Of a stretch of DNA of 64,000 nucleotides, positions 41,850 to 50,575 are shown in pieces. This stretch comes from Streptomyces sp. NBC_00654. Its GTDB lineage: Bacteria; Actinomycetota; Actinomycetes; Streptomycetales; Streptomycetaceae. Numbering within the stretch: the first letter of the stretch is position 1; each line of letters opens with the position of its first letter. The DNA lies in contig NZ_JAPEOB010000001.1 of the NCBI RefSeq assembly GCF_026341775.1, forward strand, positions 372,001 to 436,000. Reading direction: 5' to 3'. Below the pieces are notes generated by a model. It saw nothing but the letters and a program-made list of their open reading frames with translations. It did not search any database and had not been told where the DNA came from. Made by a program: the position numbers and the translations under genes.

Positions 41850-42138
41850 CTTTACGCGTCCTTGATGCCGGGTCGTGCCAGTGGTGGAATGGCCGTGTTC
41901 CTCCCGTTCCGGCGCGGAGGGGCGGGGCGGCGGACGCCGTGCCGTGCGGCGAGGTGTCGGACGCGTTACCGGCGCGAACGGCCGCGCGCGGTCGCGAAGG
42001 GGCGCGGACAGGCGGGGCGCGGGCAGGAGGGCGACGCGCTGCGGCGTTCGGCTCATGGAGTCCGGGCCACGGCGGTTGATCTTGATCCCGCGCTCCCGGC
42101 GGTGCTACTTCGGCTCTACCGAACCAAGGGAGAGCGCC

Positions 42139-43581
42139 GTGCGCCAACTTCACCCCCTTTCGTCCCGCCTTTTCCCCCGTGCGTCGCGTTCCGTCCGTGC
42201 GCGGCTACGAGCCGCCGCCGTCGCCGGCCTCGCGGTCCTCGCGGTCGTCACCGTCCCCGTGCAGGCGCCTCCGGCCGCGGCCGGAGGGCACCGTCCGGCC
42301 GCCGCGGCGGACCCCGCGGCGGACCCTGCGGCGATCCGTGACTGGAACGTCATCGCCACCGAGACGATCAGCGCCAACCTCGGCGCCACCCGCCCCTCCG
42401 GGCAGGTGGCGCTCTGGCACGGGTTCGTCTCCGCCGCCGTCTACAACGCCGTGGTCGGCATCCAGGGCACCTACGCCCCGTACAAGTGGAAGGAGCGCGG
42501 GCCCGCCGGCGCGTCCCCCGAAGCGGCGGCCGTGACCGCCGCGCACCACGTCCTGCTCACCTGCTTCCCGCCCTCGCGGGCGAGCCTCGACACCGCGTAC
42601 GCCGCCTCCCTGGACAAGATCCCCGCAGGCCCGGCGAAGGACCGGGGCGTGGCCTTCGGGGAACGGGCCGCCGCCCACCTCATGGAGCTGCGCGAGGGCG
42701 ACGGCCGGTTCGCGGACGTGCCCTTCACGATGCCGCCCGCGCCCGGCGTCTGGCGCCCCACCGCACCCGCCCGGCTGCCCTTCATCGACACCTGGCTCGG
42801 CAGGCTCCGGCCGCTCCTGCTCACCTCGCCCGGCCAGTTCCGCCCCGGACCGCCGCCCGCCCTGCCCTCGGCCCGCTACGCGCGGGACGTGAACGAGGCG
42901 AAGAGCATGGGAGCGAAGACCGGCTCGGGCCGAACGGCGCACCAGACCGGGACCGCCCTCTTCTTCGGGGGCAATCTGCTGGTCCAGGTCCAGTCGGCCC
43001 TTCGGGACCATGCCGCCCGGCACGGCCTCGGCATCGCGGAGACGGCGCGGCTGTTCGCCGCGGCGAACACCGCGGCGGCCGATGCCGCCATCACCGCGTG
43101 GGACTCCAAGCTCCAGTACGGCTTCTGGCGGCCGGTCACCGCGATCCAGCTCGCCGGGACCGACGGCAACCCCGCGACGGAGGCCGACCCGCAGTGGGAG
43201 CCGCTGCTCGTCACACCCCCGCATCCCGAGTACGTCAGCGGCCACGCGACGGTCGCGGGTGCGGTGATGCGGGCGGTCACCGGAGTCCTCGGCACCTCAC
43301 GGGTCGACCTCGACGTCCCCTCCGAGATCACCGGCACCACACGGCACTACGAGTACGCCGACCAGTTCAACGAGGACATGATCGACGCCCGTGTGTTCGG
43401 CGGGATCCACTTCCGTACCTCGGACATCACCGGATGCCGGGTCGGCGACCGTATCGGCGGCTGGGCGCTGGCCCACTACTTCCGGCCGCTGGACCGGGGG
43501 GACGCGCAGGCGTCGGCACGGCCGGCGGGCCCCGACCGCGCCGCCCGGCCGAACTGTCCGGGTGAACTGTCCGGGCGGTGA
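42139..43581 (+). CDS. Vanadium-dependent haloperoxidase-family secreted protein
   Basis: 480 residues. A twin-Arg-poor signal peptide (residues 1-45, core AAAVAGLAVLAVVTVP) is followed by an Ala/Asp-rich stretch. The vanadate pocket motifs are complete: KLQYGFWRPVTAI, PEYVSGHATVAG with Ser-Gly-His, and DARVFGGIHFRTSD with the Arg and axial His. The protein is therefore a PAP2-superfamily haloperoxidase or acid phosphatase. The halide is unknown. The GTG start has AAGGGAGAG 4 nt upstream. A bidirectional hairpin follows. No natural-product cluster is evident beside it. Confidence 0.87.
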   Translation: MRQLHPLSSRLFPRASRSVRARLRAAAVAGLAVLAVVTVPVQAPPAAAGGHRPAAAADPAADPAAIRDWNVIATETISANLGATRPSGQVALWHGFVSAAVYNAVVGIQGTYAPYKWKERGPAGASPEAAAVTAAHHVLLTCFPPSRASLDTAYAASLDKIPAGPAKDRGVAFGERAAAHLMELREGDGRFADVPFTMPPAPGVWRPTAPARLPFIDTWLGRLRPLLLTSPGQFRPGPPPALPSARYARDVNEAKSMGAKTGSGRTAHQTGTALFFGGNLLVQVQSALRDHAARHGLGIAETARLFAAANTAAADAAITAWDSKLQYGFWRPVTAIQLAGTDGNPATEADPQWEPLLVTPPHPEYVSGHATVAGAVMRAVTGVLGTSRVDLDVPSEITGTTRHYEYADQFNEDMIDARVFGGIHFRTSDITGCRVGDRIGGWALAHYFRPLDRGDAQASARPAGPDRAARPNCPGELSGR

Positions 43582-43636: not shown

Positions 43637-44743
43637 TTACGCCGTCGTCGGCGCCGGGGTCTCACCGGCGCGGCCGACCGCGGCCCTGGTCAGGACGGCG
43701 GAGGAGCCGACCACGGTCCCGGCCGGCCCGGCGTCGCCCGCCTCGGTGAGGACGGTGCGCTCACCGAGGAACGCGTACGTGGTCCGGTCGAAGATCCACT
43801 GTGTCTGCTGTCCGTGCGACGTACGGGCGACGGCGACGCCCTTGCGGCCCGCGGCGTCGGTGGCCGTGTCGACCACCGTGACCCCGGGGATCTTCCCGGC
43901 GGCCGCGTAGAGTGCGGCGCCGACCCGCGGCGGCGCCCAGGTCTCGGCCAGCAGGTCACCGATCGCGGTGAACGCCCGCTGGTCCGGGTCCTGGCCCGAT
44001 CCGCTGGTCTCCTCGCGGATCAGCTTCAGCAGGGCGTCGGGGTCGGTGGGCAGCGATGCGACGTACGCGTGGGTCGGGTCGCTGATCGACGGCCCGCTCC
44101 CGGACAGCGTGCTCGGCCGGGGCTTCGCTCCGGGGCCTTCGAGGGAGTGGACCGGTGTGCCGGCCTCGGCGCCGAGCCGGCTGTCGGGCTCGCCCTCCTC
44201 GCGCAGCAGTCCGGGGCGGCTGCCGTCGGCGGACAGCCACACCTGCCGGGAGTGCGCGGGAGGCAGGGTCACCGGGCCGCCGCCCGCGCTCTGTCCGGCG
44301 TACGCGACCTTGCTCTCGATGTACACGAACCGGTCGTCGGCGACGGCCTGCCGCTTCTCCCCGCCGGCGGCGAGCGCGATGCGGTCCAGGAGCCGGGCCG
44401 CCTCCGGCGCGGCGGGGGAGGCGCTCACGACGTCGGGGGTGCCGCGGCCGGGGGTGTCCGTGAGGTTCACCGCGACGACGCCGCCGACCGCCAGCGCGCA
44501 GGCGATGGCCGGTACCAGGAACCGGACCGTACGCCGACGCGGGCGCGGGGCGCGGGCGGTGGCGGCGTTGGCGGTGACGGACTCTTCGGTACGGGCGGTC
44601 TCGCGCAGCATGGCTTCCTTCAGCATCAGTTCACGGTCGGCGCGCAGGCCGGGGACCGGCGGCGCGGGCAGCAGGGCGGTGAGGCCGAGGCGTTCGGCCT
44701 CCTCGGTCCGGTGGTCCGGACGGGGCCGCGAGGGGGTGTTCAT
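43637..44743 (-). CDS. CU044_5270-family membrane protein, probable anti-sigma partner
   Basis: 368 residues. The cytoplasmic N-terminus (about 70 residues, LKEAMLRETART) leads to one membrane helix (FLVPAIACALAVGGVVAV) and a large external domain containing VYIESKVAYAG, REEGEPDSRLG and TQWIFDRTTYAFLGERTVL. The family is regularly encoded right after an ECF sigma factor, and the topology fits a sigma-sequestering sensor, although no zinc anti-sigma motif is visible. ATG 44743 overlaps the sigma stop (ATGA), so the products are made in balance. The external domain probably senses an envelope cue. Confidence 0.82.
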   Translation of the reverse strand: MNTPSRPRPDHRTEEAERLGLTALLPAPPVPGLRADRELMLKEAMLRETARTEESVTANAATARAPRPRRRTVRFLVPAIACALAVGGVVAVNLTDTPGRGTPDVVSASPAAPEAARLLDRIALAAGGEKRQAVADDRFVYIESKVAYAGQSAGGGPVTLPPAHSRQVWLSADGSRPGLLREEGEPDSRLGAEAGTPVHSLEGPGAKPRPSTLSGSGPSISDPTHAYVASLPTDPDALLKLIREETSGSGQDPDQRAFTAIGDLLAETWAPPRVGAALYAAAGKIPGVTVVDTATDAAGRKGVAVARTSHGQQTQWIFDRTTYAFLGERTVLTEAGDAGPAGTVVGSSAVLTRAAVGRAGETPAPTTA

Positions 44744-45417
44744 CCGAGGTTCTCCTGGGTCAACGGCGGGACGGCCGGGAAGCGGCCCGGTCCGGGCCTG
44801 TCGGGGGTGGCGGAGGGGGCTCTGCCCCCTGCCGCGGGCGGCCGGTCGGCTCCGGGGCCGGCGGCGCGGGCCCCTGACCTGGCGGCGCGGGTCTCCTCGG
44901 CGGCGAGTTCGCGCAGCCGGGTCCGGGCGCGGGACAGCCGTGAGCGGACGGTGCCGACCGGTACGCCGAGCGCGTCGGCGGCGGCCGCGTAGTCCAGACC
45001 GGCCCACACCACGAGGGTGAAGACCTCCCGGTCACGGCGCCGCAGGCGGGCGAGCGCGGCGTGCGCGGCGCGCAGTTGCTCGGTGTCGGCGAGATGCGTG
45101 ACGAGATCGTCGGCGAAGTCCGGGACCGCGTCGCGTTCCGGGGCGCGGGCGAGCGCGATCTCGCGGCGTCGCCGTGCGCGTGCGCCGCGGCGCATGATGT
45201 TGGTGGCGATTCCCAGCAGCCACGGGCGCAGACTGTCCCCGTCGGGGCGGAGTTTCTCCCGTCCGCGCCATGCCTCCAGGAAGGTCGCCGAGACGACGTC
45301 CTCGGCTTCCGCCCAGTCGCCGGTCACCCGCAGGGCATAGCGGTACAGCACCTGGGCGTGCTCGTCGTACAGCTCTGCCAGGGCGTCGCGGTCCCCGCGG
45401 CGGAAACGGTTCCTCAT
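44740..45417 (-). CDS. ECF-type RNA polymerase sigma factor
   Basis: 225 residues. Region 2: FRRGDRDALAELYDEHAQVLYRYALRVTGDWAEAEDVVSATFLEAW. Region 4: LRRRDREVFTLVVWAGLDYAAAADALGVPVGTVRSRLSRARTRLRE with the recognition helix. Region 3 is absent, as in ECF factors, and the C-terminal 45 residues are Gly/Ala/Pro-rich. The frame is open to 45477, but the predicted transcription start near 45428 rules out the GTG at 45435 and supports ATG 45417. The promoter is a mirror image of the promoter for the divergent exported-protein gene, so autoregulation by this sigma is likely. Confidence 0.92.
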   Translation of the reverse strand: MRNRFRRGDRDALAELYDEHAQVLYRYALRVTGDWAEAEDVVSATFLEAWRGREKLRPDGDSLRPWLLGIATNIMRRGARARRRREIALARAPERDAVPDFADDLVTHLADTEQLRAAHAALARLRRRDREVFTLVVWAGLDYAAAADALGVPVGTVRSRLSRARTRLRELAAEETRAARSGARAAGPGADRPPAAGGRAPSATPDRPGPGRFPAVPPLTQENLG

Positions 45418-45430
45418 GAGTGATTCCACA

Positions 45431-45462
45431 CTCTGCACTGCCACCTGCGTTGCGGGAGTTCC
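45431..45462 (-). promoter_or_regulatory. ECF-type promoter of the sigma factor gene
   Basis: Leftward: GGAACTCC (45462-45455), 14 nt, CAGTGCAGAG (45440-45431). The GGAAC core is a classic ECF -35. The identical elements with the same spacing face the other way at 45550-45581. Confidence 0.7.
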
Positions 45463-45484
45463 CGTGACGTGGACCACAGGGGCC

Positions 45485-45522
45485 GGCCGGGACGTCGTGG
45501 ACGCGGCCGGGACGTCGTGGAC
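45485..45522. repeat. 20-bp direct repeat between divergent ECF promoters
   Basis: GGCCGGGACGTCGTGGAC occurs at 45485 and 45505. Each copy includes the palindrome GACGTC. It sits midway between the two mirrored promoters. Confidence 0.75.
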
Positions 45523-45549
45523 CCGGCCGGTGGTGTGGCGCGGCTCACA

Positions 45550-45581
45550 GGAACTCCGGGGCCCGGCGGCGCAGTGCAGAG
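45550..45581 (+). promoter_or_regulatory. ECF-type promoter of the exported-protein gene
   Basis: GGAACTCC (45550-45557), 14 nt, CAGTGCAGAG (45572-45581). The predicted start coincides with ATG 45583, so translation may be leaderless. Confidence 0.7.
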
Positions 45582-45582
45582 C

Positions 45583-47160
45583 ATGAACAGTTCATCCGTA
45601 TCCCGCCGGAGCGCCCTGCGGACCCTGGCCGTCGCCGTCGCCCTGACCGCCGGCGCCGCCCCGCTGTGGGAAGCCACCGCCTCCGCCGCCGCGTCCGCCG
45701 CGGAGCCGACGACGTACACCCTCACGATCACCCACCTCGACCGCACCGGCGCCCGAACGGCGGACTACGCCACCAACGTCACGGGAATCTCCGGTCCGGG
45801 TGCCGAGGAGACGGTCCATCCGTACGACGCCTCCGGCACGACCACCGTGCGGCTGCCCCGGGGCCGGTACCTGCTGGACAGCTCCCTGACCACGGGGAAG
45901 GAGGGGGACGGTACGGACTGGATCGTGCAGCCGCGCCTGGACCTCGACCGCGACACCGAGGTCACCGTCGACGCGCGGACCACCGCCCCCGTCGACGTAC
46001 GGCCGCCCGACCGCTCGGCGGGCTTCCTGCACAGCGCGATGTTCGTCCGGGTCACCCACGACGGGGTCACCCGGGACGCCAACCTGATCAACTCCACGCC
46101 GGACCTGCGCGTCGCGCACCTGGGCCCCGACAGCGAACCCGGCTCGGTCCGGCAGTGGTTCGACGCGTACTGGAGCGCCGGCGCCGCCGACTACGCGCTC
46201 GGCTACACCTTCACCGGCCCCCGTGCCCTGACCGGGCTCACCCGGCACCCCGCGCGGCGGGACCTGGCGACTCTGCGGGCGCGCGGCGCGGCCCGGCCGG
46301 GTACGGACGGAGCCGCCTCCCTCGACCTGCAGCCGAGCGCCGGACCGACCGTCGGGCTCTCCCGGCGGCTGGCGGCCCCCGGCACGGCCACCTCCTACGT
46401 GACACCGGAGCGCGGCACCTGGGACCTCACCTACACCGCCCCGGGTGCGCCCGGCGCGCGGCCGAACCGCTACGCCGCCGACGGCATCGCCGTACGCGCC
46501 GGGCGCACGACCACCCACACCTTCGACAACGCCGTCTTCGGCCCCGACCTCACCGGCCGCCCCGGTGTCGTACGCCAGGGCGACCGCCTCACCGTCGATG
46601 TCCCGCTGCTCGCCGACGGCGACGGCCATGTGCCGTCGGCACCGTCGTACGGAACGGCCCGCACCACGCTGCACCGCAACGGTGTGCGCGTCGGCTCCCG
46701 GACGGACGCCCCCGGAAGGGCCGCGTTCACCGTGCCGCCGGGGAACGCGGCGTACCGCCTCACCAGCACGGTGGACCGCGAGGGCGCGCCCGGCACCGCC
46801 ACACGGGTGACCTCCGTGTGGACGTTCACCTCGGGCACGACGGCCGGACCGGTCCCGGTCCCGGTGAGCGCCGTGCGGTTCTCGCCCGCGCTCGACCCGG
46901 CCGGCACGGCGCCGGCGAACGCGGCCCTGCGTGTTCCGGTCACCGTGCAGGGTGCCGGGGCCGGCGGGTACGTCAGCACTCCGGCGGTTTCGGTCTCCGT
47001 GGACGGCGGCACCACCTGGACCCGGGTACGGGTCGAGCGCGGCGCCGTCACGATCCGCAATCCGCGTGCGGGCAAGGGCGTCTCGCTGCGCGCCGAGCTG
47101 ACCGACACCCGGGGGAACACGCTCACCCAGACGATCATCGACGCCTACCGGACGGCGTGA
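45583..47160 (+). CDS. Exported protein, twin-arginine signal, function unknown
   Basis: 525 residues. The signal peptide has SRRSALRTLAVAVALTAG, a twin-arginine motif, with cleavage near ASA. The mature protein is beta-rich, with repeated Ig-like or C-terminal-protease-like modules (TYTLTITHLDRTGA, RYLLDSSLTTG, AAFTVPPGNAAYRLTSTVDR, SVSVDGGTTWTRVRVERG). It resembles the non-catalytic C-terminal part of Streptomyces subtilisin-type proteases, but no catalytic triad is present. It begins 165 bp from the divergent sigma gene and shares its promoter sequence, so I infer it is a target of that sigma factor. Confidence 0.8.
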   Translation: MNSSSVSRRSALRTLAVAVALTAGAAPLWEATASAAASAAEPTTYTLTITHLDRTGARTADYATNVTGISGPGAEETVHPYDASGTTTVRLPRGRYLLDSSLTTGKEGDGTDWIVQPRLDLDRDTEVTVDARTTAPVDVRPPDRSAGFLHSAMFVRVTHDGVTRDANLINSTPDLRVAHLGPDSEPGSVRQWFDAYWSAGAADYALGYTFTGPRALTGLTRHPARRDLATLRARGAARPGTDGAASLDLQPSAGPTVGLSRRLAAPGTATSYVTPERGTWDLTYTAPGAPGARPNRYAADGIAVRAGRTTTHTFDNAVFGPDLTGRPGVVRQGDRLTVDVPLLADGDGHVPSAPSYGTARTTLHRNGVRVGSRTDAPGRAAFTVPPGNAAYRLTSTVDREGAPGTATRVTSVWTFTSGTTAGPVPVPVSAVRFSPALDPAGTAPANAALRVPVTVQGAGAGGYVSTPAVSVSVDGGTTWTRVRVERGAVTIRNPRAGKGVSLRAELTDTRGNTLTQTIIDAYRTA

Positions 47161-47398: not shown

Positions 47399-48460
47399 GT
47401 GCTGAGTTCTCCGGAGGCTTCCGCGCCCGCTACGAAACCCGGGCCCGCTACGGAACCCGCGCCCGCTACGGAACCCGCGCCCGCTACGGAACCCGCGCCC
47501 GCCATGGAACCCGGGCCCGCGACCGCCGGGCGTCGCACCACCGGCCCCCGGCGGGACGGTGTACTGCTCGCCGCCACCGCGCTGCTGTGCGCGGCGCTGA
47601 TGGCGCTGCACGGGCAGATCCCGAACACCGTCGGCCATCTCGGCAGCCTCTTCCAGACGCTGCTGCCCTGGACCGGGCTGAGCGTTCCCGTCCTGCTGGT
47701 GTCGGCGGCCCTCCGCCGCTCCCGGTTCGCGGCCGTGGCGGTGCTCGCGCCCGCCGCGGTGTGGGTGACGCTCTTCGGCGGCATGCTCACCGACAAGGGC
47801 TCCGCCGGCGGCGACCTGACAGTGGTCAGCCACAACGTGGACGAGGGCAACACGGACCCGGTGGGGACCGCCCGCGGCCTCGCCGCCGCGGACGCCGACC
47901 TGCTGGCACTGGAGGAGCTGTCGCAGGAGGCCGCGGACGTCTACCGGCGCGAGCTGGCCCCCGGCTACCCGCACCACGCGGTGATCGGCGGGGTCGGCCT
48001 GTGGAGCAAGTACCCGCTCAAGGACGTGGCGGCGGTGCCGATCATGCCGTGGACCCGCGCGATACGGGCCACGGCCCTGACGCCGAAGGGGCCCGTCGCC
48101 GTCTACGCCGCCCATCTCGCGTCGGTACGGGTCCACCCGGTGGCCGGGTTCACCGCGGGCAGGCGCAACGACGCGGCCCGGGAGCTGGCCGCGGCGCTGC
48201 GGGCGGAACGCTCGCCCCGTGTCGTGGTGGTGGGCGACTTCAACGGCACGTTCCAGGACCGGGCGCTGGCCCCGGTGACCTCCCGGCTGCGCTCCGCGCA
48301 GCGGGAGGCCGGCGACGGGTTCGGCTTCAGCTGGCCCGCCGCGTTCCCGGTGGTCCGCATCGACGACATCCTCGTGAGGGGGATGGAGCCGGTCTCCTCC
48401 TGGAACCTGCCCGCCACCGGCAGCGACCACCTCCCCGTGGCGGCCTCCCTGCGCCTGTGA
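47399..48460 (+). CDS. Endonuclease/exonuclease/phosphatase-family membrane protein
   Basis: 353 residues. The N-terminus holds about five PATEPA hexapeptides encoded by an 18-bp DNA repeat. Three membrane helices (about 55-130) precede the EEP domain: VVSHNVDEGN, LALEELSQEAADVYRRE, VVVVGDFNGTFQD with the Asp-Phe-Asn metal and catalytic site, and ATGSDHLPV with the catalytic His. It probably hydrolyses phosphodiesters or phosphomonoesters outside the membrane. The GTG start has GGGAGG upstream. The 238 bp before it hold GC-rich repeats and a promoter-like CCTGATACAC stretch. Confidence 0.85.
   Translation: MLSSPEASAPATKPGPATEPAPATEPAPATEPAPAMEPGPATAGRRTTGPRRDGVLLAATALLCAALMALHGQIPNTVGHLGSLFQTLLPWTGLSVPVLLVSAALRRSRFAAVAVLAPAAVWVTLFGGMLTDKGSAGGDLTVVSHNVDEGNTDPVGTARGLAAADADLLALEELSQEAADVYRRELAPGYPHHAVIGGVGLWSKYPLKDVAAVPIMPWTRAIRATALTPKGPVAVYAAHLASVRVHPVAGFTAGRRNDAARELAAALRAERSPRVVVVGDFNGTFQDRALAPVTSRLRSAQREAGDGFGFSWPAAFPVVRIDDILVRGMEPVSSWNLPATGSDHLPVAASLRL
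47425..47514. repeat. 18-bp coding repeat in the EEP gene
   Basis: The unit GCCCGCTACGGAACCCGC begins at 47425, 47443, 47461, 47479 and 47497. It encodes PATEPA. Copy number may vary between strains. Confidence 0.85.
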
Positions 48461-48560: not shown

Positions 48561-49322
48561 ATGACCCATGACGGCCAGGTAGGTGCGGTGTCGGAAGCCC
48601 GGGTCCCGGACCCAGTCAGCGTGCTCGTCGTCGAGGACGACGCCACCATCCGCCGGGCCGTCCAGCTCGCCCTGGAACGCTACGGCTACCAGGTCACGGT
48701 GGCCGCCGACGGGCTCAGCGGGCTGGAGGCCTTCCGCGCGGGCGGGCACGATCTGCTGATCCTCGATGTGATGCTGCCCGAGCTCGACGGGATCGGTCTG
48801 TGCTACCGGATCCGTGAGGCGAGCCTCGTCCCGGTCCTGATGATGTCGGCGCGCGGCGACGCCCTCGATGTGGTCGCCGGTCTGGAGGCGGGCGCCGACG
48901 ACTATGTGATCAAGCCCGTCGACACCGCCGTCCTGGTCGCCCGGATCCGCGCCCTGCTGCGCCGCGCCACCTTCGAGCCGCCCGCCGCCGGCCCGGCCCG
49001 GCCCGGGGGCGGCAGCGGCGCCCGGGTCCCCGACGGGCTGCTGGTCTTCGGCGACCTCAGCGTGGACACCCTCGGCATGGTGGTGCGCCGGGCGGGCGAG
49101 ACCGTACCGCTGGCCCCCACCGAACTGCGTCTGCTGCTGGAGTTCGCCGCCTCCCCCGGCACGGTGCTGGACCGCCGCCACCTGCTGCGCGAGGTGTGGG
49201 ACTACGGCTGGGAGGGCGACACCCGCGTCGTGGACCTGTGCGTGCTGCGCCTGCGCAAGAAGATCGGCGGCGCCCGGATCGAGACCGTCCGCGGCTTCGG
49301 CTACAAACTCGTCCGCGGCTGA
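48561..49322 (+). CDS. OmpR-type response regulator, CseB-like
   Basis: 253 residues. The receiver domain has VLVVEDDATIRRAVQLALERYGYQV with Asp26/27, phospho-Asp69 in LLILDVMLPELDG and Lys118 in VIKP. A Gly/Pro linker leads to the winged-helix DNA-binding domain (VPLAPTELRLLLEF, RRHLLREVWDYGWEGDTRVVDLCVLRLRKKIG). Sequence style matches CseB, partner of the envelope-stress kinase CseC, although no sigE gene sits beside it. ATG 48561 has GAGGGACG upstream and a TACGAT -10 at 48544; a GTG at 48588 with AGGTAGG is an alternative. The kinase gene follows 5 bp after the stop. Confidence 0.9.
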   Translation: MTHDGQVGAVSEARVPDPVSVLVVEDDATIRRAVQLALERYGYQVTVAADGLSGLEAFRAGGHDLLILDVMLPELDGIGLCYRIREASLVPVLMMSARGDALDVVAGLEAGADDYVIKPVDTAVLVARIRALLRRATFEPPAAGPARPGGGSGARVPDGLLVFGDLSVDTLGMVVRRAGETVPLAPTELRLLLEFAASPGTVLDRRHLLREVWDYGWEGDTRVVDLCVLRLRKKIGGARIETVRGFGYKLVRG

Positions 49323-49327
49323 CCGCC

Positions 49328-50575
49328 GTGCGCTTCGTCAACCCCCTCTCCCTGCGCTGGAAGATCGCCGCGCTGACCGCCGCCGCCTGCTGCGCGGTCG
49401 CCGCCGTGATCGGCCTGCTCGTCCACGACGAGACCCGGGAGCGGGGGCTGCGGGTGGGGCGGGAACGGGTCTCGGCCGCGCTGGCCGCCGCGGAGAGGGA
49501 GTACACCCGGACGGGGAAGCGGCCGCCCAGCGCCGACCTCATGGCGCCGGACGCGCTGCCCGCGCCGCTGGCGCGGGACCTGGCCGCTCAGGCGCGGGAG
49601 GGCGGGACCTACGGCATCTGGTACGACGTCGAGGACCCCAACTGGTACTGGATGTGGGGGGCCGTGGCCGTCGGGGACGAGGTCCTGGTCGTACGGACGG
49701 ACATGAGCACCGAGGTGCGCGGCCTCCAGCTCCTGGACCGCAGCATCCTCACGTCCGTACTCGCCGCCCTCGCCGTCGTCGTCCCGCTCGCCGCCCTGGC
49801 GGCCGAACCGGTCAACCGGCGCCTGCGGCACGGCGCCCGCACCGCCCGGATGATCGCCGACGGCGACCTCGACGCCCGCATCGGCCGCACCGGACGGACC
49901 CGCGACGAGATCACCGAGATGTCGGCGGCCGTCGACGGGATGGCCGGGGCCCTGCAACGCAGGCTGGAGAACGAGCAGCGCTTCACCGCCGATGTCGCGC
50001 ACGAGCTGCGCACCCCGCTGATGGGCCTGGTCACCGCCGCCGGGCTGCTCCCGGAGGACGACGAGGCGACGGAGCTGGTACGGGACCGGGTGCGGGCGCT
50101 GCACGGGCTGATCGAGGACCTGCTGGAGATCTCCCGCCTCGACGCGGGTGCCGAGCGGGCCCGGCTCGACCCGGTGCCGCTGGGCGAACTGGTCGCCGAC
50201 GTGGTGCGCCGCACGGCGACGGACACCCGGGTCACCGCCGGGGACGCCCGGGTGGTGGAGACCGACCCGCGCCGGGTGGAGCGTGTCGTGGTCAACCTCG
50301 TCACCAACGCCCACCGGCACGGTGCCGCGCCCGTCGAGGTCACCGTCACCGGTGCCCGCGTCGTCGTACGCGACCACGGGCCGGGCTTCCCCGCCGCGCT
50401 GCTCGACCAGGGCCCGCAGCGCTTCCGCACCGGCGCGAGCGAGCGCGGGTACGGCCACGGTCTGGGGCTGACCGTCGCGCAGGGGCAGGCAGGGGTCCTC
50501 GGGGCCCGGCTCACCTTCGCCAACGCTCCGGACGGGGGCGCGGTCGCCACCCTCGACCTGGACCCCGCCGCCTGA
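49328..50575 (+). CDS. Sensor histidine kinase, CseC-like
   Basis: 415 residues. The first helix is LTAAACCAVAAVIGLLV. The external sensor domain (about 40-140) includes GTYGIWYDVEDPNWYWMWG. A second helix (VLAALAVVVPLAALA) leads to a HAMP domain, the H-box FTADVAHELRTPL with His225, the N-box VNLVTNAHRHG and the G-boxes VRDHGPGFP and RGYGHGLGL. It autophosphorylates on envelope cues and passes the phosphate to the preceding regulator. GTG 49328 lies 5 bp after the regulator stop, so the two are cotranslated. The Trp/Tyr-rich sensor segment is typical of CseC-type proteins. Confidence 0.9.
   Translation: MRFVNPLSLRWKIAALTAAACCAVAAVIGLLVHDETRERGLRVGRERVSAALAAAEREYTRTGKRPPSADLMAPDALPAPLARDLAAQAREGGTYGIWYDVEDPNWYWMWGAVAVGDEVLVVRTDMSTEVRGLQLLDRSILTSVLAALAVVVPLAALAAEPVNRRLRHGARTARMIADGDLDARIGRTGRTRDEITEMSAAVDGMAGALQRRLENEQRFTADVAHELRTPLMGLVTAAGLLPEDDEATELVRDRVRALHGLIEDLLEISRLDAGAERARLDPVPLGELVADVVRRTATDTRVTAGDARVVETDPRRVERVVVNLVTNAHRHGAAPVEVTVTGARVVVRDHGPGFPAALLDQGPQRFRTGASERGYGHGLGLTVAQGQAGVLGARLTFANAPDGGAVATLDLDPAA

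Follow-up and report, generated by a model that had tools for sequence, protein, structure and literature searches.

Divergent promoters between a sigma factor gene and an exported-protein gene

The window analysed here is a stretch of 64,000 nucleotides from Streptomyces sp. NBC_00654, and all coordinates are positions within it. The subject of the analysis is an intergenic region that separates a gene for an extracytoplasmic function (ECF) sigma factor, on the minus strand, from a divergent gene for an exported protein, on the plus strand. The sigma factor (44740..45429, 229 amino acids from a probable leaderless GTG start) was scanned from position 45417 and matched Pfam Sigma70_r2 at 16–85 and Sigma70_r4_2 at 116–168, both over their cut-offs, with no match to region 3. 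Its stop codon is overlapped (ATGA) by the start of a 368 amino acid protein of the CU044_5270 family (43637..44743, minus strand; NF038083, 230.8 bits against a cut-off of 100), and the same −1 overlap was present in 52 of the 56 named related loci in which a frame of this kind could be identified. A structural model of this protein has two N-terminal cytosolic helices and an RseB/MucB/LolA-like outer domain. We regard it as a candidate membrane anti-sigma factor; a Pfam scan matched no known anti-sigma domain in it. The exported protein (45583..47160, 525 amino acids) had no Pfam or NCBIfam match. It is modelled as an all-beta chain of Ig/FN3-like domains (mean pLDDT 87), and its Foldseek matches were mostly Ig/FN3-type chains with low TM-scores.

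Between the two genes, the pattern GGAACTCC-N14-CAGTGCAGAG occurs once facing each of them, at 45462–45431 on the minus strand and at 45550–45581 on the plus strand. An earlier note on this DNA had described two ECF-type promoters with identical spacing and 18 fixed bases in both directions, and this was confirmed; the spacer sequences are unrelated. On the sigma side the −35 element GGAAC lies at 45458..45462 and the −10 element CAGTGC at 45435..45440 (both minus strand), while on the exported-gene side the same elements lie at 45550..45554 and 45572..45577 (both plus strand). The exact pattern has two sites in the whole 9.6-Mb genome, both of them in the 45431–45581 region, and with up to three mismatches it has 14 sites, compared with 4 for the reversed pattern. 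The window holds one inverted pair with these 18 fixed bases within 250 bp, and 100 first-order Markov windows of its size together yielded one as well. From the window alone the mirrored pair is thus roughly a 1-in-100 event, and it is therefore the comparative data from related genomes that make it secure. With those data, given below, the mirrored promoter elements at 45431–45581 are real.

A composite unit conserved in orthologues

A feature overlooked by the earlier note, outside the 18 fixed bases, is a Crp-type palindrome (GTGrC-N4-GTCAC) one base upstream of each −35 element. The sigma-side box, GTGGTCCACGTCAC (45464..45477, minus strand), fits GTG(N)6GNCAC, and the exported-side box, GTGGCGCGGCTCAC (45535..45548, plus strand), is one base off it. 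GTG(N)6GNCAC is the S. coelicolor Crp consensus from chromatin immunoprecipitation on arrays (ChIP-chip) by Gao et al. 2012, as quoted in PMC10033298.

The promoter region was compared in 42 sigma orthologues, selected from 69 named loci by their protein (the amino acid start pattern), with no DNA pattern or positions imposed; the remaining 27 loci include box-less ones. The conserved unit is TGTG-N7-TCAC-N-GGAAC-N17-CAG-N8-GTG, or, with the last −10 base included, CAG-N2-C before the GTG. Counted from the start codon, T−47, G−46, TCAC (from T−38 onward), GGAAC, CAG, C−6 and the GTG itself were invariant (42/42), and the first G of the box was present in 41 of 42, so that the GTG of the box stands at 41–42/42. 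The bases upstream of the box carried just ~0.1–0.6 bits. The fixed part of the −10 element is CAG plus the last C, and the T after CAG was present in just 20 of the 42. In the orthologues the −10 element is thus CAG..C, and not the full ten-base sequence that the window shows.

The exported side gave the same picture. Among 35 loci with a divergent homologue, the whole unit with the same spacing and an open frame was found in 31; L175 and L176 carry the unit with a broken frame, the start in L117 is one base further, and L151 departs from the pattern. The alignment of the 31 promoters imposed the spacing, the AAC of the −35 (with G or C allowed as its first base) and the CA of the −10, and left the box letters free. 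In the box, GTG was present in 31, followed in the second half by T in 26, C in 31, A in 31 and C in 30. The −35 was GGAAC in all 31, as it was in 42 of 42 at the sigma gene's own promoter, and in the −10 the G (31/31), the T (30/31) and the last C (31/31) were retained. The intergenic region can thus be described as a single composite promoter present in duplicate, with the form TGTG-N7-TCAC-N-GGAAC-N17-CAG-N8-[A/G]TG.

Across 392 same-genus genomes, the composite pattern had 72 matches (71 distinct contexts) in 46 genomes, and its reversed control had none. An ATG or GTG stood 11 nucleotides past the C of CAGT in all 72. Downstream of the 71 distinct matches were 42 sigma genes, 23 genes for the exported protein, four broken or short frames beginning like these two, and two acyltransferase-like genes. 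The last of these, at L077 and L205, are acyltransferase-3-like genes with box, promoter and offset in place (the L205 frame is broken), and their promoters mark them as a possible further target. The genome search suggested in the earlier note, GGAAC-N17-CAGTGC, proved unselective, with 8 matches against 13 for the reversed pattern. Six of the eight lack both the palindrome and a start codon at the offset, and only the window's two carry both. Two one-mismatch matches to the longer pattern elsewhere in the genus (L010 and L011) were taken as chance, the box and the start codon being absent by eye.

The box and the promoter did not always occur together. In a quick tree of 98 sigma genes, which has many unsupported forks, the box was present in 79, and 15 of the 19 box-less genes formed one clade that keeps GGAAC (as GGAAC-N17-CA), which argues that the box is a module separable from the promoter; L101 was counted as box-less solely on account of its −35, which is GGAAG. 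In L117 the region upstream of the sigma gene has two −35 elements that face each other with just one palindrome between them; it serves both, which fits the behaviour of a symmetric dimer site. This is a minimal version of the divergent unit as it occurs in nature.

The region also holds two tandem 20-bp units (45484..45523, 19/20 identical), in which the earlier note had pointed to GACGTC and suggested binding of a further regulator. The repeat is present, but it is not conserved, is probably incidental, and regulator binding there is unsupported. In the 300 bp upstream of the 69 named sigma genes, the best match to a unit was 16 of 20 bases, at one locus, and the GACGTC occurrences in a few loci looked incidental.

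Start codons and the probable sigma–target pair

Both genes have a start codon at the same distance from the promoter. The GTG at 45427..45429 (minus strand) lies 11 nucleotides past the C of CAG, as does the ATG of the exported gene at 45583, and this offset is conserved in 42 of 42 sigma orthologues. The earlier note had taken the layout to fix the sigma start at 45417, an ATG in frame with this GTG, but this interpretation is not supported. Seven related sigma genes (L095, L096, L098, L099, L102, L105 and L106) have the GTG and no ATG at codon 5, and 45417 is therefore likely to be an internal methionine. We conclude that the sigma start is probably GTG 45429.

With the start codon at this constant distance, a leader carrying a ribosome-binding site would not fit, which points to leaderless mRNA. 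That both mRNAs are leaderless, with transcription predicted to begin at the start codon, is a well supported reading of the conserved offset. PMC6742748 puts leaderless mRNA at ~20% of open reading frames in S. lividans. The choice of start codon also divided by gene: in the 71 distinct matches, sigma genes used GTG (43/71) and targets ATG (28/71), with no exception, and in the named set the sigma gene had GTG in 42/42 and the exported gene ATG in 30/31 and GTG in 1/31. The relatedness of the loci would inflate any statistical test of this split, which may possibly set a translational ratio between sigma factor and target.

Besides this genome, 10 among the 199 searched carry a short orthologue of the exported protein, 52–72% identical along most of its length and in one case interrupted by a stop codon, and the sigma factor was present in 10 of the 10 that were tested; proteins of ~1100 amino acids matching the exported protein at 34–42% occur in many of the genomes searched. 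In G161 and G184 the exported gene and the sigma gene are at separate places, and the motif is kept at both. In L017 the −10 elements of both sides have moved off CAGTGC, to CAGTTC and CAGTAC. Recognition by the sigma factor of both its own promoter and that of the exported gene is a well supported inference from these sequences, and the earlier proposal of a single sigma reading both is very likely correct: both sides are conserved in orthologues, and the pair is still matched where the genes have separated.

Other genes nearby were noted in passing. A frame at 47399–48460 (plus strand) encodes a VanJ-like protein of the endonuclease/exonuclease/phosphatase family, at 328.7 of 700 bits far under the NCBIfam VanJ cut-off; 41875–43581 (plus strand) has a weak, sub-cut-off match to the second helical domain of vanadium chloroperoxidase; and at 48561–50575 (plus strand) a response-regulator-like and a histidine-kinase-like frame are adjacent, as judged from their translations alone.

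A proposed two-input promoter, its alternatives and known systems

We propose, with a probability of about two in three, that the locus is a leaderless, self-activating sigma unit with composite ECF and Crp promoters and a candidate anti-sigma factor, driving itself and one exported Ig-like protein. In this scheme the sigma factor (44740–45429) would recognise GGAAC and CAG and transcribe its own operon (sigma factor plus the CU044_5270-family anti-sigma candidate) as well as the exported-protein gene, each mRNA beginning at its start codon. The palindrome would be bound by a dimeric regulator of the Crp family, the universal Crp of Streptomyces being the likeliest candidate, and this regulator would act as a class II activator in contact with region 4 of the sigma factor. 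The RseB/LolA-like outer domain of the anti-sigma candidate would sense an envelope cue and release the sigma factor, Crp would supply a metabolic cue, and full activity would require both. Self-activation is suggested by the matched promoters, and the effect of Crp would be activation rather than repression.

Several observations favour Crp as the likely binder of the box. With the transcription start at the start codon, the palindrome spans −48 to −35 and is therefore centred at −41.5, which we take to be the class II Crp position. The genome encodes six proteins that bind cyclic nucleotide monophosphates (cNMP), and the best of them, a Crp orthologue, resembles M. tuberculosis CRP, with a nearly identical recognition-helix stretch in the helix-turn-helix. 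Alternatively, the same two ECF promoters could be joined to an operator for a repressor or some other regulator (another Crp/Fnr-type protein or an unrelated dimer), making the second input an off-switch or a different signal. GTGAC-N4-GTCAC is a generic dimer site, the genome has six cNMP-binding proteins, and a protein bound beside the −35 might obstruct sigma region 4. Such an operator fits less well with the fixed one-base gap to the −35 and with the centre at −41.5, which is the geometry of a class II activator. The fit of the sigma-side box to the Crp ChIP-chip consensus quoted in PMC10033298 also speaks for Crp, and we judge the operator reading unlikely.

It is very unlikely that the palindrome belongs to the promoter itself as an upstream extension, recognised by this sigma factor or by the alpha subunit with no separate protein. 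In many members the box does keep a constant distance from GGAAC, but its two halves are symmetric around a variable centre, the one clade of 15 sigma factors without it keeps GGAAC-N17-CA, and one copy serves both directions in L117. We also see little chance that another sigma factor reads these promoters and the neighbouring one is merely a target. Cross-talk is conceivable, since the box and GGAAC also precede paralogous sigma genes; however, the −10 changes in L017 are matched on both sides, and the exported gene co-occurs with the sigma factor in all 10 genomes tested.

Other results weigh against the composite ECF and Crp unit that we propose. Paralogous sigma clades have an offset of 12, the exported-side box has one mismatch to GTG(N)6GNCAC, and a search of this genome for box plus −35 without the −10 gave 4 matches against 2 for the control, with no enrichment elsewhere. 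Band shifts with Streptomyces Crp failed, according to PMC10033298.

A wider and more doubtful generalization, offered tentatively, is that a whole ECF group has obligate two-input promoters. Initiation by the sigma factor would depend strictly on a Crp-type class II partner sitting a single base upstream of the −35, tying cyclic AMP or another metabolic cue to RseB/LolA-like envelope sensing, with leaderless mRNA and the GTG/ATG split setting the output ratio. ECF sigma factors are mostly regarded as one-signal switches set by an anti-sigma factor. If a family of sigma genes shares a conserved Crp-type site at a fixed place beside the ECF −35, many of them would become two-signal gates. The rule linking box, −35, −10 and start codon would let regulons and true start codons be read from sequence, and the finding hints at a function for proteins of the CU044_5270 family, which is uncharacterised. 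A literature search that covered few subscription papers found no description of Crp sites at ECF promoters, nor of CU044_5270; RIViT-seq targets for several S. coelicolor sigma factors are listed in PMC9205884.

The locus has much in common with autoregulated ECF sigma/anti-sigma operons (such as E. coli RpoE-RseA-RseB, S. coelicolor SigE and SigR): regions 2 and 4, a GGAAC −35, probable self-activation, and a candidate membrane anti-sigma factor in the operon. Unlike in those operons, the −10 here is CAG and not CGTC or GTT-like, a dimer box abuts the −35, and the mRNA is predicted to be leaderless on both sides. The RseB/LolA-like domain would also form part of the anti-sigma candidate itself; the likeness to the RseB/MucB/LolA/LppX fold is one predicted from the model, in which the fold belongs to a transmembrane protein. 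Class II Crp-dependent promoters would share the GTG-N8-CAC-type palindrome centred at −41.5, provided that transcription begins on the start codon; known examples typically use a housekeeping sigma factor, whereas the −35 here is ECF-type. Finally, the S. coelicolor Crp sites quoted in PMC10033298 have a consensus that the sigma-side box fits and from which the exported-side box differs at a single base; the sites here are distinct in holding a fixed position beside an ECF −35.
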